From contig CBDUXP010000063.1 of the NCBI GenBank assembly GCA_965371225.1, forward strand, positions 1 to 21,292: a DNA stretch of 21,292 nt. Direction: 5' to 3'. This document shows, piece by piece, positions 4,825 to 21,292 of the stretch. Made by a program: the position numbers and the translations under genes. Below the pieces are notes generated by a model that was given only the letters and a program-made list of their open reading frames with translations, made no database searches and was not told the DNA's origin. Numbering within the stretch: the first letter of the stretch is position 1; every line of letters starts with the position of its first letter. This DNA comes from CBDUXP01 sp965371225 [NCBI: uncultured bacterium] (GTDB taxonomy: Bacteria; Abyssobacteria; SURF-5; CBDUXP01).

Positions 4825-6906
4825 CTAGGGCGGACAGAGGAGCGCGTCGCCAAGCTGTGCGTACCAGGACGGCGCTTGTTCCAATTGGGCTTGCCGGTCC
4901 GGGCTCTCCTCGACATCTGGCGGCGAGTCCGTGAGCGGGGCACCGACCGGGGTCGCCAAAATCTCCGCGCTGACGAGGATCATCGCCTCCGGCACCGTCA
5001 TGCTGCACCGGCGCGACACGGCCACCGCGGTGGTATCAAGGTGCTGCGTGTGCTCCCAATAGGTCAGCGACAGCCAAACGGACTTCGCGTGGCCCGTCGC
5101 ATCGACGACGGCCTCCAACATGGCCACCGCTTCCGGATCCTGCGTCTGCAAGCCACGTCCGGCCAGGGCGACGCTCAACCCCAGCGCCGAGCGCGCGTAC
5201 GCATTCAGATCGCGCGAGGGCACGCCGGTCATAGCGACGCGCGTCACTGCGTTGCGTACGAGCTTCAGCGGCAGGTCGAACTCAACCGCCATCTGGATCG
5301 CGGCGAACTGCGCCCCCAGCGCTCGCGCTTCCCGCGCCATCTGTTCGAGCAGCGTCAATTCGTCCGCCGTCAAGGTGTCCTCGCCGGTCAGCAACAGCAG
5401 CGCCTCTTCCACGACGGCTTCCACCGTCGCGAGTTCCGCATCGCTCAACGACGCCAACAGGTCCGCCAACAGGGCGGCGACTTCTTCCTCCGTGAGGTCT
5501 TGGGCGTACGCGGGGCGCCCAAAGACGGCCTTCCGGCTCACCTGCGCAACGTGACCGGCCACCCGGCGCAACAGCGATACGTCGCGCCCGGGCGAGACCG
5601 GTTGGTCGGGCGGGGGCGCATCCTCCGCTTCCCGGGGCACCAGGAACGTGTCGAGCGGTGGTGGCTCTTCCGGAACGTCCACGTGCACCGCCCGGACCAC
5701 CTCCCCCAGCCAGGCACGTTCAGCCGGCGAGACTTCACGCAACGCCAGGCGGGTGCGCTCGCGGGCCGCGCGGCGGTTTGGGTGATCCGCCGGGCGCGAC
5801 CGGAAAAACCGTGCTTCGCGGCGCATCCGCGTCACCTGTGCGTCCACCTGCCGCAAGCCGGCCGGCGTGAGGACCACGATCCGTGCTTCGAGCAGCAAGA
5901 GTTGCGCCTCGGTAGGCAGGCGCGCGATCCGCGCGCGGCGCATGGGTCCTGGTCCGCCCGGCTCCAACGCCCGCAGCACCAGGCCCGCGGTACAAAGTGT
6001 GAGCCCCACGCCGATGCGGACCACGCGGCGCACCGTTGCCCGGATGCGGCGCCGTTGCCCCAAGCTCACCTGCCCGGGCGGCGGCGGCGCCTGCGGTCGC
6101 CCGCCCATCAGGCGTTCTTCCAGCACATCCTTCTTGTGGACCTCATGGGTGGAGTAGAACGCGCCGCATCCCATGCATTTAATCCGGTCGCCCGCTTCGT
6201 CTTCGCTCGCGCTCCCTTCGTATCCGCAGACGGGGCATACCGTGCGCAGCTCGGGCGGCGCGCGCAGGGCCGCCAGGTGTGTGGCCAGCGAATCGTCGGC
6301 ATCGCTCGCCTCCAACGGTTCAGCATCTTCCTGCAGCGGAACCGGGGTGGGCGCGTCGCAGTTTGCGCAAGGTCGAGTGCTGCCGGCGAAGCGCCCCGGC
6401 ACCGTGTTTTCGAACCCGCACACGCTGCAGCGTGCGCGCAGGGTTTCCGCGGGGGTCGCCCCCCGCTCGGCTGGGGTGGACTGGGCGCGGCGATGGGCGC
6501 GGGGCTCGGCCGCCGGAGTGGCAGTGGCCCCGCCGCGCGGCACGGGCAGGGTGTCCGCCGAGGTGGCCAGGGGCCCCCCGCACTCCGGACACAAGTACCC
6601 GCTGGGCTCGGGTGGCGGAGCGGGACCGCACCAGCCACACCCACACTGCATCGCGGGCCCCGGCCGCTGACGCCGCAAGCGTCCCAGCGAGATGCGCAGG
6701 CTGTCCTGGAGGCGATCCCACCCGGCGCGGACCCGCACCGCCATGCCACCCTCACCAATAGACAGCGTCGCGCCGCAGTCCGGACACCGAATCTTCTTCC
6801 CCGGCCGGGCGCGCCGCACGGGCCCCTGGTGGCCACAGTCGGGACACGTCACCGATATGCGCGCGGCATCGTCCCGCCGTTGTCCTCCGGTGTCTGATTT
6901 CGACAT
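4825..6906 (-). CDS. Multi-zinc-ribbon protein of unknown function, possibly membrane-anchored
   Basis: Protein of 693 residues that I cannot assign to a named family. The N-terminal third holds four zinc-ribbon-like Cys4 modules: Cys21/24-41/44, Cys88/90/93-106/109, Cys160/163-180/183 and Cys224/227-244/247. They are joined by Pro/Ala-rich linkers. A short hydrophobic stretch (about 296-311, GVGLTLCTAGLVL) may be a single membrane span, preceded by an Arg-rich segment that would stay inside. The C-terminal half (about 330-693) is Ala/Leu/Glu-rich and mostly helical, with no catalytic motif I recognise. The start is ATG 6906. The ribbons could bind nucleic acid or protein, or regulate the C-terminal part. 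The gene has normal GC and codon pattern for the region. Confidence 0.75.
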   Translation of the reverse strand: MSKSDTGGQRRDDAARISVTCPDCGHQGPVRRARPGKKIRCPDCGATLSIGEGGMAVRVRAGWDRLQDSLRISLGRLRRQRPGPAMQCGCGWCGPAPPPEPSGYLCPECGGPLATSADTLPVPRGGATATPAAEPRAHRRAQSTPAERGATPAETLRARCSVCGFENTVPGRFAGSTRPCANCDAPTPVPLQEDAEPLEASDADDSLATHLAALRAPPELRTVCPVCGYEGSASEDEAGDRIKCMGCGAFYSTHEVHKKDVLEERLMGGRPQAPPPPGQVSLGQRRRIRATVRRVVRIGVGLTLCTAGLVLRALEPGGPGPMRRARIARLPTEAQLLLLEARIVVLTPAGLRQVDAQVTRMRREARFFRSRPADHPNRRAARERTRLALREVSPAERAWLGEVVRAVHVDVPEEPPPLDTFLVPREAEDAPPPDQPVSPGRDVSLLRRVAGHVAQVSRKAVFGRPAYAQDLTEEEVAALLADLLASLSDAELATVEAVVEEALLLLTGEDTLTADELTLLEQMAREARALGAQFAAIQMAVEFDLPLKLVRNAVTRVAMTGVPSRDLNAYARSALGLSVALAGRGLQTQDPEAVAMLEAVVDATGHAKSVWLSLTYWEHTQHLDTTAVAVSRRCSMTVPEAMILVSAEILATPVGAPLTDSPPDVEESPDRQAQLEQAPSWYAQLGDALLCPP

Positions 6907-16859: not shown

Positions 16860-17912
16860 ATGAACCAACGCACACGACTGGGCCTCGTGGTGGTGCTGGG
16901 CGGGGTGGTCATCGGGGGAGCCGTGGCGTACACCCACCAGCTTGCCCGCCAAAGCGCTGACCAGTTTGGGGCCTTGCCGCCTGGGAAAGTACGCCTGCCG
17001 GCTAGTCCGCCGGACGCCGTGGTGCTCACCTACCTCTATTACTGCACGCTGTATGGGTCGCCGGAAGACGCGACGCCGCGGACGCTCGCCCGCCTCGTCA
17101 AGCGCGCGCCGTGGGACGACCTGCTGCCGCCGCGCACTGAGTTCGACGACGCGCTCGCCGCGGCGGCCGCGGCGTGTGGGGACGAGATGACGTCGAAGGA
17201 CTGGCTCGCCCAGGCCGAGTACTTCGGTGAACTCCCCGGCGCCCTGGCGCGGGCCAACATGAGCATGGACCGCCATCCGTTCCATGCCGAGGCTCTATTC
17301 GGGGACCTGCACGGCGCCGGCCAGGGCGCACACTTCCTCCTCGCGCTCGCCCCCGCCGCCTGCGCTGACGGCGGAGCCCCCATCGGCATTACGTACTCGG
17401 GTGTCGTCGGCCGTGTGGCGCCGGACGATGCGGCAGCGCAGCGCCAGCTCGCGCGCTCGCGGTTGCTGTCAGAGAACTGGAAGGCGTTCGTGCGGGGAAA
17501 CGTCCCTACGCTTGCCACGTTCGCCACGCATGAGGACCGGGTCATCCGCCGGGAAGCGGTGCAAGCGCTGGCCCGCGCGGGCGACCGGGACGCGATCGTT
17601 CCGCTGCGGGAGCGATTGGACGATCCAGACGAAGAGCTGCGGTACATCGCCCTGCTCGGGCTGGCGGAGTTGGGCGACCTGTCGGTGGAGCTGCGGCTCC
17701 GCGCGCTGTTGGGACAGGACGAGGACTACTTGAGCTACGGGCTCTTGCACTACCGCGTGGTGCTGGCGTTGGCCGGCCTGGGCGCGACCGACATGCGGCC
17801 GGAACTGGAACTCATGGCGGACTGGCATTCGCCCGTGTTGTTTCCCCGCGAAGCGCGCGCCGCCTTGCGCACGCTGGACCAACGCGCGCGCGCGCGGGCG
17901 CGAGACCGGTAA
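16860..17912 (+). CDS. Membrane-anchored protein with C-terminal HEAT-like repeats
   Basis: Protein of 350 residues with no named family that I recognise. One N-terminal hydrophobic helix (about 8-27, LGLVVVLGGVVIGGAVAY), flanked by Arg and His, is a signal anchor, so the body is probably outside the cytoplasm. The middle (about 50-210) is a mixed region without motifs. Residues about 220-345 contain two to four helical HEAT or PBS-like repeats (for example REAVQALARAGDRDAIVPL and RYIALLGLAELGDLSVEL), usually protein-protein contact surfaces. ATG 16860 is preceded by GAGGGA at five bases; a TTG at 16824 gives a longer but less likely form. It lies between gltD and the phosphatase gene; no functional link to either is shown. 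Confidence 0.7.
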   Translation: MNQRTRLGLVVVLGGVVIGGAVAYTHQLARQSADQFGALPPGKVRLPASPPDAVVLTYLYYCTLYGSPEDATPRTLARLVKRAPWDDLLPPRTEFDDALAAAAAACGDEMTSKDWLAQAEYFGELPGALARANMSMDRHPFHAEALFGDLHGAGQGAHFLLALAPAACADGGAPIGITYSGVVGRVAPDDAAAQRQLARSRLLSENWKAFVRGNVPTLATFATHEDRVIRREAVQALARAGDRDAIVPLRERLDDPDEELRYIALLGLAELGDLSVELRLRALLGQDEDYLSYGLLHYRVVLALAGLGATDMRPELELMADWHSPVLFPREARAALRTLDQRARARARDR

Positions 17913-18003
17913 CCCTGTGCTAGACTACGCCGTTTTGCGCCGGGCGAAGTGACCGGCACCAATACGCGCGTCACGTGCGCGCCCCGTCCTTGGAGAACCT
18001 CGC

Positions 18004-19383
18004 ATGCAGCGCATCGCGTTGGCCGTCTGTCTGATCGCCGCCCTGACCGGCACGCCGGCGACCGGGGATCCGCTTCCGGCGGGCCCAGAGGCGTTCACGG
18101 GCAAAGCGAAGAACGTCATCCTGTTTCTCGGCGATGGGATGGGCGTATCCACGGTGACAGCGGCACGCATGCACGCGAAGGATGCGGCGTATGAGCTGAC
18201 GCTGGATCGCTTGCCCTTTACCGCCATGTCGCGCACCTATTCGGCGTCGCACCAGGTCACGGATTCGGCGGCCGGCATGAACGCGCCCATGACCGGCCAC
18301 AAGACCGCGAACGAGGCAATCGCCGTGGACGCGGACGGGAATCCGCTCCGCACGTTCCTGGAGATGGCCGAAGCCGCGGGCAAAGAAACGGGCATCGTGA
18401 CGACGACCACGGTCACCCACGCCACGCCGGCCGTCTGCTACGCGCATATCAACAGCCGCAACAAGGAACGCGAGATCGCGACCCAGCTCGTGCCCGGCAC
18501 GAAGGCATACAATCGCGCGCTCGGCGACGGCCTCGAGGTGATCCTGGGCGGCGGCCGGATGTTCTTCGTGCCTCGCAGCGACTCCGGTGGTGCACCGGTG
18601 TTGGACGAAGAGGGGATGCCGGGTGGCCGCGACGATGGACGCGACCTGCGCGCGGAGATGCAGGCGGCGGGTTATGCGTACGTGTGGAACGCGGACCAAC
18701 TAGCGGGCCTGGACCTTGCCGCAACGGACAAGCTGCTGGGCCTGTTCGACTCCAGCCACATGAAGTTCGAGGCGCAGCGCATGCAAGACCCCGCGGCCGA
18801 GCCGAGCCTGCCAGAGATGACCGCGGCCGCCTTGACTATCCTGAAGCGAAGCGAGGCCGGCTTTTTCCTTATGGTCGAGGGCGGGCGGATCGACCACGCC
18901 CACCACGCCAACGTCGCGCACGCCGCCCTGACGGAGATGCTGCAGTTCGATCGGGCCGTCAAGATCGCCGTTGACATGGTGGACCTGCGCGAAACCCTCA
19001 TCATCGTCACGGCGGACCATTCGCACGTCATGACGATCGCCGGGTATCCCAAACGGGGTACCTCCATCTTCGGCATCGCCGGAACCGACGCGACCGGCGC
19101 GCCGTACACGACGCTGGGGTATACGAACGGGCCGGGCTATCGGGGCCGCGTCCCGCGCGTGGCGCCGGCGCAGGACGAGTTCAACGGGGTGCTGGGCCTA
19201 CCCGCGCCGAAAGATCCCACGCATCCGACTTACGTTCAGGAAGCGGCCGTGCCCCTGCGAAGCGAGACGCACGGCGGGGAAGACGTGATCATCTGGGCCA
19301 TCGGCGCCGGCGCGGGCCGGGTCCGGGGCGTGGTGGAGAACACGCAGACGTTCCACTGGATGCGCGCCGCCAGCGGGCTGTGA
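18004..19383 (+). CDS. Alkaline phosphatase, PhoA family, secreted
   Basis: Phosphate-ester hydrolase of 459 residues, the usual size. An N-terminal signal peptide (about 1-20, hydrophobic core IALAVCLIAALTG) sends it across the membrane. Asp44 in FLGDGMG is a metal ligand and Ser88 in TDSAAGMNAP is the nucleophile that forms the phosphoserine. Further metal ligands of the family are seen: Glu292, Asp297 and His301 around VEGGRIDHAHH, Asp338 and His339 in TADHSH, and His423 in ETHGGEDV. All key residues are present, so it should be active in releasing phosphate. ATG 18004 has a GGAG-containing ribosome-binding site about seven bases upstream. No Pho-box-like site was identified in the 91-base gap before it. 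Confidence 0.93.
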   Translation: MQRIALAVCLIAALTGTPATGDPLPAGPEAFTGKAKNVILFLGDGMGVSTVTAARMHAKDAAYELTLDRLPFTAMSRTYSASHQVTDSAAGMNAPMTGHKTANEAIAVDADGNPLRTFLEMAEAAGKETGIVTTTTVTHATPAVCYAHINSRNKEREIATQLVPGTKAYNRALGDGLEVILGGGRMFFVPRSDSGGAPVLDEEGMPGGRDDGRDLRAEMQAAGYAYVWNADQLAGLDLAATDKLLGLFDSSHMKFEAQRMQDPAAEPSLPEMTAAALTILKRSEAGFFLMVEGGRIDHAHHANVAHAALTEMLQFDRAVKIAVDMVDLRETLIIVTADHSHVMTIAGYPKRGTSIFGIAGTDATGAPYTTLGYTNGPGYRGRVPRVAPAQDEFNGVLGLPAPKDPTHPTYVQEAAVPLRSETHGGEDVIIWAIGAGAGRVRGVVENTQTFHWMRAASGL

Positions 19384-19419
19384 TGATTCGAGCACTACAC
19401 ACGAAGCTTTTTCCAAACC

Positions 19420-19428
19420 TGCTATTCT
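19420..19428 (+). promoter_or_regulatory. Possible extended -10 promoter of the OLD-family gene
   Basis: TGCTATTCT has the TG-N-TATTCT form of an extended -10 element, 44 bases before ATG 19473. No good -35 hexamer is visible. It lies in the AT-richer gap at the composition break. Confidence 0.3.
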
Positions 19429-19461
19429 CTGGGCCAATTCGTCACTGAGAGATTGAATGAT

Positions 19462-19466
19462 GGAGG
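19462..19466 (+). promoter_or_regulatory. Ribosome-binding site of the OLD-family gene
   Basis: GGAGG lies six bases before ATG 19473 and fixes this start. Confidence 0.7.
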
Positions 19467-19472
19467 CGACGA

Positions 19473-21292
19473 ATGCGGCTCAGCCGACTGCACGTCCTAA
19501 GTTTTCGGGGCCTTCACGACGCAAGACTTGAACTGAACCAACATACGGTTCTTGTCGGCCCAAACGGAACCGGAAAGTCGTCGTTCCTACACGCCCTCCG
19601 CTTTTTCTACACGCAGAGTTTCCAGCTATCGGAGGACGATTTTCACGCTGGTGATGTGTCCACGAACATACAAGTTCAGCTGACATTTTCTGACCTATCA
19701 GATCAAGCTAAGAGAGATTTCGCACCCTACCTAGAAGGGGATTCTTTAAGTATTACCAAGAAAGCCTCCCTCTCGGACGACCGGACATCAAGTAATCAGA
19801 CTTATCATGCCATACGTCAGGTCCATCCTGGTTTTGCGGAGATCCGGTCAGCGAGGGCATTCAGGGAGAAGCAATCTCTATACAACCAACTCCGCGAGAG
19901 AGAGACATACGATGACTTGTCACCTGTACGGGGCGCAGATGCGCTAGAGACTGCTCTAACGGCATGGGAGGAAAACAATCCCGATGCGTGTGAGCCTACC
20001 GAGTCCGAACTAAGGTTGCTCGGTTGGACCGGCGTAGCGATCGGCAAGATAAAGCAACATTCTGACCTGATTTTCATTCCTGCCGTAAGACAGGCCGTCG
20101 AAGAGGCAGAAGAGACCAGGAAATCTCTGACCAAGCTAGTTATACAGCCTCGCATCAAGGCGTGGACTGAATTCCAAAACTTCAAAACTAGTACTAAGGT
20201 CGATTACGACGCCATAACCAACGCACCTCACAGACCAGACTTGGCTGACGTCCAAGAAGGCTTGACCAATATTCTCAAAACCTATGCGCCAGAGGCCGCA
20301 GTGGTACTAGAGTGGGATACTACTACTGTAATCTCGATCCCCGACCCCGCAGTAAGGTTGGATCTCGTCGAACATGAGTACCAGGGGCCCATCGAACATA
20401 AGGGGCATGGCCTACAGCGCGCTTTCATTTTTGCTCTACTGCAATTTCTAGCGGACTCGATGCATGAGTTTGATGAAGATACCTCTGGAGCGGAGTCGGA
20501 CGCGCCTGCAGGCCCCTGTTACGTATTGGCAATTGAAGAACCGGAGCTTTATCAACATCCGATCCGATGTAGGGCCCTATGCAGGACACTTCAACGGCTA
20601 GCAGAGCAATCGCCTCCCGGTCGGGCCTACATGCAGGTAATTTACGCGAGTCATTCACCACATTTCGTAGACTTCTCACGATTCACAAACGTTCGTCTCG
20701 TACGTAAATTACCCGTGGTGCTTGCAGACACCCTGCCCCCTACCTGGGTAGACACCGCCTCTGTCTCTGAAGTAGCTGAGAAATTGGCATCTTTCCATGA
20801 GCTACAGCCGGACGTCGTCAACATGGAGCGTGTAGTGGCGGACATTCAACGCCTGATGGGGCCCGAACTAAGTGAAGGTCTTTTTGCGAACGCTGTGTGC
20901 TTGGTTGAAGGCCCAAGCGATAGAGCCGCCTTCCATGCTGTTGCTCTTGGTCTTGGCTATGACTTGGACCACCTTGGAATCGCTGTGATACCGGCTCATG
21001 GAAAGACGGCGCTGCACTATCCGCTTGTGATTTTCCAATCTCTCCAGATACCTTGCTATGTAGTCTTTGACGCTGATGCCCATCTTTCCGAGAAAGATGC
21101 CAAGCCAGAATGGAATCGCAGACTGCTACATTACCTAGGTGGACCGCAGGAGGATCATCCGGAAACACAGGTCTTGGGACACGTCGCGTGTTTCCATAGG
21201 AATTTGGAAGCACATTTGGAGGAAGACGCCATCGGCCAGGAGCTTTATGGGCAACTATTACACGAGGCTTGCGAGTTCTATGGCTTTTCGAG
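19473..21292 (+). CDS. OLD-family ATP-dependent endonuclease (AAA/ABC ATPase plus TOPRIM), partial
   Basis: The frame is open from ATG 19473 to the right edge (606 codons, no stop), so the C-terminus is missing. The ATPase head has Walker A GPNGTGKSS at 29 (Lys35), a signature-like GLQRAF at 313, Walker B LAIEEPELYQHP with Glu355/Glu356, and an H-loop ASHSPHF with His394. The TOPRIM nuclease domain follows: Glu479 in CLVEGPSDRAAF, the DAD pair Asp533/Asp535 in VVFDADA, and Glu579 in NLEAHL. This order is that of OLD nucleases, including GajA of the Gabija anti-phage system; family members nick or cut DNA under nucleotide control. Base content is lower (42% and 57% GC in two hand-counted 60-base lines versus 70% in a line of the phosphatase gene), and CTA, GTA, ATA, AGA and AGG codons are common. 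This suggests transfer. Whether a helicase partner follows cannot be seen. Confidence 0.88.
   Translation, partial: MRLSRLHVLSFRGLHDARLELNQHTVLVGPNGTGKSSFLHALRFFYTQSFQLSEDDFHAGDVSTNIQVQLTFSDLSDQAKRDFAPYLEGDSLSITKKASLSDDRTSSNQTYHAIRQVHPGFAEIRSARAFREKQSLYNQLRERETYDDLSPVRGADALETALTAWEENNPDACEPTESELRLLGWTGVAIGKIKQHSDLIFIPAVRQAVEEAEETRKSLTKLVIQPRIKAWTEFQNFKTSTKVDYDAITNAPHRPDLADVQEGLTNILKTYAPEAAVVLEWDTTTVISIPDPAVRLDLVEHEYQGPIEHKGHGLQRAFIFALLQFLADSMHEFDEDTSGAESDAPAGPCYVLAIEEPELYQHPIRCRALCRTLQRLAEQSPPGRAYMQVIYASHSPHFVDFSRFTNVRLVRKLPVVLADTLPPTWVDTASVSEVAEKLASFHELQPDVVNMERVVADIQRLMGPELSEGLFANAVCLVEGPSDRAAFHAVALGLGYDLDHLGIAVIPAHGKTALHYPLVIFQSLQIPCYVVFDADAHLSEKDAKPEWNRRLLHYLGGPQEDHPETQVLGHVACFHRNLEAHLEEDAIGQELYGQLLHEACEFYGFS

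Follow-up and report, generated by a model that had tools for sequence, protein, structure and literature searches.

The last gene of the window (the whole stretch of 21,292 nucleotides that was analysed) is likely to encode an OLD nuclease of the TOPRIM type that was acquired horizontally, is closest by sequence to class 1 and would act as an anti-phage effector. This reading is based on the domains, the catalytic residues of the visible part, the predicted OLD fold and a foreign base composition that begins at a sharp border. It also draws on the two phyla sampled, in which relatives are sparse, and on the fact that some relatives are linked to known or candidate defence genes. The initial annotation had described an OLD-family nuclease and candidate anti-phage gene, and this is borne out by Pfam, PADLOC, a profile search of the PDB and the predicted fold. 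The break in base composition and the partner contexts of the relatives are additions to it.

Domain structure and conserved residues

The OLD-family ATPase-nuclease gene occupies positions 19473..21292 of the forward strand, with 606 codons visible and its 3′ end beyond the contig. The ORF (19473–21290, 606 amino acids) starts with ATG and is open at the contig end. A GGAGG sequence, read directly at 19462..19466 on the same strand, is the likely ribosome-binding site, with a 6-nt spacer before the ATG. A scan of positions 19200–19700 gave no sigma-70-like promoter, for which it is a weak test, and no terminator. There is no tRNA in the window.

Pfam places an ABC/SMC-type ATPase domain (AAA_15) at the N-terminus, residues 1–399, with 105.9 bits against a cut-off of 32.1, and an OLD-like TOPRIM domain (PF20469) at residues 470–535 (20880..21077, forward strand), with 63.5 bits against a cut-off of 23.2. 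Both matches are far beyond chance. The window protein thus has the features by which the OLD family is recognised, namely an ABC ATPase with Walker A, Walker B and H-loop and a fused C-terminal TOPRIM domain. The two domains lie in one ORF, whereas PARIS has them in separate genes. PADLOC ranks Old first (157.7 bits), followed by AriA (118.4) and GajA (103.1), and NCBIfam gave only matches below threshold.

The aligned relatives are 638–696 residues long (median 657, n = 69), and extend 41–87 residues (median 49 over the 69) past the point at which the window protein stops. About 50 C-terminal residues of the window protein therefore fall beyond the contig, and as these are unseen the intactness of the gene is not proven. 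Because the contig ends inside the gene, any partner gene to the right is also out of view, so that the 'module' of the initial annotation is unproven. All 69 aligned relatives are longer than GajA (578 residues), in agreement with the earlier remark that the protein is longer than GajA.

Conservation was counted over 70 alignment rows, consisting of the window protein and 69 of its 83 relatives. The alignment left out L001, L002, L052, L065, L068, L070, L071, L072, L076, L077, L078, L083, L084 and L093, which apart from L001, L002 and L083 are fragments, near-copies or a fused ORF. The Walker A motif or P-loop, GPNGTGKS (residues 29–36; 19557..19580, forward strand as for all the motifs), contains Lys35, found in 70/70 rows. 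The Walker B region, IEEPELYQHP (residues 354–363; 20532..20561), contains Glu356 (70/70) and Glu355 (69/70). His394 (20652..20654; 70/70) is the probable H-loop histidine, named after PMC7049728. The TOPRIM acids Glu479, Asp533 and Asp535, which form the Glu and DxD motifs, are each present in all 70 rows. The initial annotation had listed these residues together with Glu579 as motifs intact and in order. All of them are indeed present, but Glu579 (21207..21209) is found in only 58 of the 70 rows, and is therefore conserved without being a strict motif.

A lysine at alignment column 720, past the end of the window protein, is present in 69/69 relatives. The basic catalytic residue is Arg487 in Thermus OLD and Lys562 in B. 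pseudomallei OLD (PMC7049728, PMC6755086), and the column-720 lysine is a candidate for its counterpart, an equivalence that we infer. If so, one likely active-site residue is missing from the window only because the contig ends.

Predicted structure and relationship to OLD classes

With AlphaFold2, the window protein was modelled at a pLDDT of 89.4 and a pTM of 0.86. Its top match among solved folds is 6p74, the class 1 OLD of Thermus scotoductus (Foldseek E 1.8e-23). Comparison using VIA-align gave Z 21.6 with 6p74 (rmsd 8.3 over 433 residues), up to 19.1 with GajA (rmsd 4.7, 410 residues) and 17.5 with the retron Eco8 OLD (rmsd 6.1, 405 residues), so that the structure search against the OLD classes proposed earlier puts 6p74 first. 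SMC heads reach Z 19.6, on the ATPase part. In the predicted structure the lead of 6p74 over GajA is narrow (Z 21.6 vs 19.1), and the rmsd is lower for GajA (4.7 vs 8.3).

The separation by sequence is wider. A profile of the subfamily searched against the PDB scored 158 bits with 6p74, 47.6 with GajA and 39.2 with the Eco8 OLD; a search with profile A5 gave 36.5 bits with the class 2 C-terminal region 6nk8. Judged on these scores, the stand-alone class 1 OLD of Thermus is clearly the closest to the window protein, ahead of GajA and the retron-Eco8 OLD. A reading with GajA of Gabija as the closest kind is not supported by these scores or by the neighbourhoods described below.

The Thermus OLD resembles the window protein in its two-domain plan, Walker A, Walker B glutamate, H-loop histidine and TOPRIM acids. 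It differs in length, having 525 residues, about 110–170 fewer than the relatives of the window protein. Folding of a full-length relative, L037, gave a model with pLDDT 84.5. Its top match, using VIA-align as well as Foldseek, was again 6p74 (VIA-align Z 24.7, rmsd 9.9, 471 residues; GajA 18.9). The last 75 residues of the L037 model are mostly helical and it is predicted to end in helices (584–656). Thermus OLD is described as lacking a C-terminal helical domain (PMC7049728). The same paper gives class 1 OLD proteins as shorter on average than class 2. The subfamily is thus class-1-like by sequence, yet long for class 1. Class 1 members are single isolated genes, class 2 members have a UvrD/PcrA/Rep-like helicase just downstream, and class 3 (retron) members have a reverse transcriptase and an ncRNA beside them. 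The OLD classes and the gene contexts of each are set out in PMC10568477.

Other known OLD proteins are more remote. The Old protein of phage P2 has the same domain order and 22.3% identity over 88% of the query, but is much more distant, with the longest end branch in the tree. GajA, a class 2 OLD, shares the ATPase, the fused TOPRIM and a similar fold, but differs in its far lower sequence score relative to 6p74. The retron-Eco8 effector, of class 3, also has the OLD fold, with a weaker match. Further OLD proteins in the literature include the nuclease of Menshen (PMC10952713). Some have other functions, which counts against the anti-phage reading, such as the archaeal Cran1, for which a cell-cycle role is described (PMC12796447).

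Base composition and left flank

The OLD gene has a GC content of 51.7% and a GC3 of 52%, compared to 66–71% and 82–91% in 11 other genes of the window. Its codon usage is similarly distinct, with a mean log-likelihood per codon of −1.73 vs −0.71 to −1.04 in the other genes. Within 17901–21292 the best GC change point, which marks the edge of the low-GC segment, is at 19378 (67.5% to the left and 51.5% to the right). This is five bases before the end of the stop codon of a host-like alkaline phosphatase gene (phoA-like; 18004..19383, forward strand; PF00245, 408 bits; GC 67.5%), which forms the left border and lies outside the system. The low-GC segment from 19378 onwards was probably acquired horizontally. 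A GC content at least 5 points below the flanks is also seen for OLD in 33 of the 67 relatives' loci that have at least 9 kb of flank.

The genes upstream of OLD are, from Pfam, phoA-like, HEAT-repeat, gltD and gltB. PADLOC was run on nine other window genes, leaving out GltB and an acetyltransferase gene; seven had no match and two had weak generic ones (HEAT-ARM, 26.4 bits; dinucleotide-binding, 32.2 bits). Nothing convincing was found in the way of insertion repeats at the composition border, and no relative was found with a phoA-like gene followed by OLD. A DNA search of plasmids with the phoA-like and OLD genes matched eight records, all inside the phosphatase part. The best full-length identities of the window GltB are 61, 62 and 63% in three phyla, and 65–67% for large partial matches; the full-length matches are to proteins from the phyla of the Sumerlaeota, Verrucomicrobia and Phycisphaerae loci that served as centres. 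Elsewhere in the window, on the reverse strand at 4825–6906, is a gene for a protein of 693 residues that carries several zinc-ribbon-like CxxC repeats.

Occurrence of relatives

In genome contigs, a scan guided by the alignment led to 94 confirmed relatives, from which 80 loci were kept; these have 28–41% identity to the window protein and come from many phyla of bacteria, with some in archaea. Viral contigs yielded 30 loci, of which many are partial. Scans of the genome and viral contigs with patterns from the single protein confirmed no relatives. Among plasmid records the best identities are 33.9% (Roseibium) and 32.5% (Paracoccus), with 26–31% in several others, and gp28 of phage KS5 is 28.7% identical. 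The window protein forms a long branch, and is at most about 41% identical to anything found. In even samples, matches at E 1e-30 or better occur in 9/392 genomes of the phylum of G014 and 4/387 of that of G011, counts that include these two centre genomes, which were picked because they hold a match. The initial annotation had named an ordinary conserved chromosomal neighbourhood in relatives as a refuting outcome; instead the neighbourhoods are varied and the occurrence is patchy.

Gene neighbourhoods

Neighbours within six genes of OLD were clustered across 83 family loci, defined by a score of at least 250 bits to the window protein, with five fragments added; weaker relatives (L085, L086, L088 and others) are outside this count. 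Genes were called by a simple longest-ORF script. Flanks are often cut by contig ends: at least one gene is present downstream in 75 of the 83 loci and at least six in 54, the upstream figures being 81 and 53. Pfam and PADLOC searches of neighbours covered the 87 ORFs of 180 aa or more that directly adjoin OLD, out of 172 at positions −2 to +2.

An Hma operon context is found in 7/83 loci, with an HmaA-type helicase and/or RmuC upstream of OLD. In these seven, members of the HmaB (DUF1156) cluster overlap the OLD stop by 4–10 bp, and in six HmaC (DUF499) follows further on, while L019 is cut by the contig end. In L013, L014, L016, L018 and L019 an RmuC-family gene directly precedes OLD, separating it from the HmaA helicase, although in L016 and L018 the contig stops short of HmaA. 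The OLD proteins of the seven loci of these Hma, or type-1 DUF499-centred BREX-related, systems are about 38–41% identical to the window protein, which has the phoA-like gene upstream instead of HmaA or RmuC. The recruitment of OLD-TOPRIM proteins to BREX and DUF499/Hma systems is described in PMC12839542, so that OLD within Hma-type systems is already in print.

A second context is an nSTAND3-type gene, which adjoins OLD in 7/83 loci by clustering and overlaps it by 4 bp in five; the Pfam model matched in six, and L048 is cut. Six adjacent proteins match the PADLOC candidate PDC-S73, which is the PADLOC model for this gene. The gene (772–794 aa if complete) overlaps or abuts OLD in L001 (8025–10343), L048, L054, L055, L069, L081 and L074, and is downstream in six of these loci and upstream in L074. 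By eye only, its N-terminus is nuclease-like.

An SbcD-like metallophosphoesterase occurs within six genes of OLD in 11/83 loci and an SbcC-like ATPase cluster in 8/83; L002, L065, L067 and L068 are near-copies of this type of locus. The two genes are seen near OLD in unrelated bacteria (L002, 8080–11831, and L059, L051, L034, L025 and L089). The N6_N4_Mtase family is matched by five of the 87 adjacent proteins, one of them in L050.

A UvrA-like gene of a single cluster lies one to three genes upstream of OLD in four Sphingomonadales genomes (L058, L079, L076 and L090), its identity being checked with Pfam for L058 and L079. It may just mark a chromosomal insertion site. In L071 (9730–16317; its genome is shared with L132) a 2195-aa ORF joins the OLD ATPase and TOPRIM to DUF4011, an AAA_11/AAA_12 helicase and an MTES_1575 nuclease, and its TOPRIM part matches only 59 of 67 profile positions. 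The ORF may reflect a genuine fusion, a deletion that kept the frame, or an artefact of assembly.

With E. coli UvrD as the phmmer query, the six genes on either side of OLD included no UvrD-like gene, in 83 loci of which many have cut flanks and eight have no called gene downstream. The search, which used this single query and had no GajB control, gave one homologue among the 83 loci, 13 genes from OLD. No reverse transcriptase family is among the best 25 of the 78 Pfam families matched by the 87 adjacent proteins.

A same-strand gene of at least 150 aa lies within 60 bp of OLD in 19/71 loci, which suggests that most loci are stand-alone. This count, like that for GC, used 71 of the 83 loci, the 12 left out including the Hma locus L019; among the 71, five have no called gene downstream and one has none upstream.

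A quick tree of 85 rows requires one change for the seven Hma-linked OLD proteins (support 92), which come from several phyla. L012, on a contig of 4 kb, and L052 fall in the same clade without an HmaB-cluster gene downstream. The window branch lies outside every context group, and an AU test, run after removal of two very long rows, did not reject joining it to the nine rows of the Hma clade (p 0.244). The tree therefore does not predict the partner of the window gene.

Alternative explanations

It is possible, although we think it the less probable course, that OLD opens a multi-gene defence operon running to the right, in which a partner senses the phage and OLD is the effector. Candidates for the partner are an nSTAND3-type gene, SbcD/SbcC-like genes and, on the model of the Hma/DUF499 systems, a DNA methyltransferase. 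The tight same-strand partners in 19 of 71 loci are consistent with this, as are the overlaps of OLD with HmaB in seven loci and with the nSTAND3-type gene in five, and the AU result for the nine Hma-clade rows (p 0.244). However, 52 of the 71 loci have no tight partner, counting the few flanks with no called gene (five downstream, one upstream), the upstream half of Hma (HmaA and/or RmuC) is absent from the window, where the upstream gene is phoA-like, and the tree puts the window in no context group. A bolder version, which is distinctly improbable, would make the window protein the first representative sampled from a deep, unnamed OLD lineage, heading an operon of its own with a partner new among characterised OLD systems, and would have the clade swap between unrelated sensor modules (DUF499/methylase, nSTAND3, SbcCD-like). 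The absence of a visible 3′ end, the foreign composition and the lack of a sigma-70-like promoter in 19200–19700, a weak test, would also fit an acquired gene that is decaying or silent and has no present function. We consider this unlikely, given that 606 codons are open, the catalytic residues that are invariant in the relatives are kept, and a ribosome-binding site is in place.

A Gabija identity, in which the gene would be GajA and a UvrD-like GajB would follow just past the contig end, is very unlikely. GajA models of PADLOC do score up to 103 bits, and in the structure comparison GajA reaches Z up to 19.1 (rmsd 4.7), but Old and the Thermus OLD are clearly better by sequence, and no UvrD homologue lies within six genes of OLD in the 83 loci, many with cut flanks. 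Moreover PF00580 is not among the best 25 of 78 Pfam families, so that at most one of the 87 neighbours matches it. A chromosomal housekeeping repair ATPase related to RecF, SMC or Rad50 is hardly credible. The heads of SMC, Rad50 and RecF match the ATPase part with Z of about 16–20, and there is a weak RecF match (TIGR00611, 31.5 bits against a cut-off of 172), but these matches end by about residue 475, the TOPRIM domain is present, the composition is foreign, and matches are rare in the sampled genomes. Over its full length the protein best matches an OLD nuclease with TOPRIM, and not the RecF/SMC-like ATPase without TOPRIM that the initial annotation had named as a refuting outcome; on the TOPRIM domain and the composition, a housekeeping identity is rejected.

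We therefore favour an acquired, class-1-like OLD nuclease with an anti-phage role. By analogy with characterised OLD proteins, the ATPase heads would gate the nuclease, and the trigger may be a change caused by the phage, such as exposed DNA ends or the loss of a host end-processing complex; a link of Gabija and OLD to the loss of RecBCD on DNA is reported in PMC12407980. The TOPRIM domain would then cut nucleic acid (DNA or tRNA) by two-metal catalysis, and the infection would abort after this cleavage.

Significance

OLD proteins are established anti-phage effectors, so that a further divergent member chiefly enlarges the inventory, and the window OLD is ordinary in itself. The border downstream of the phoA-like gene is a concrete place to look for the remaining acquired segment. 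One OLD clade recurs both apparently stand-alone and beside several unrelated partners, and such a clade is a convenient set for asking whether an OLD effector is interchangeable between sensing modules.
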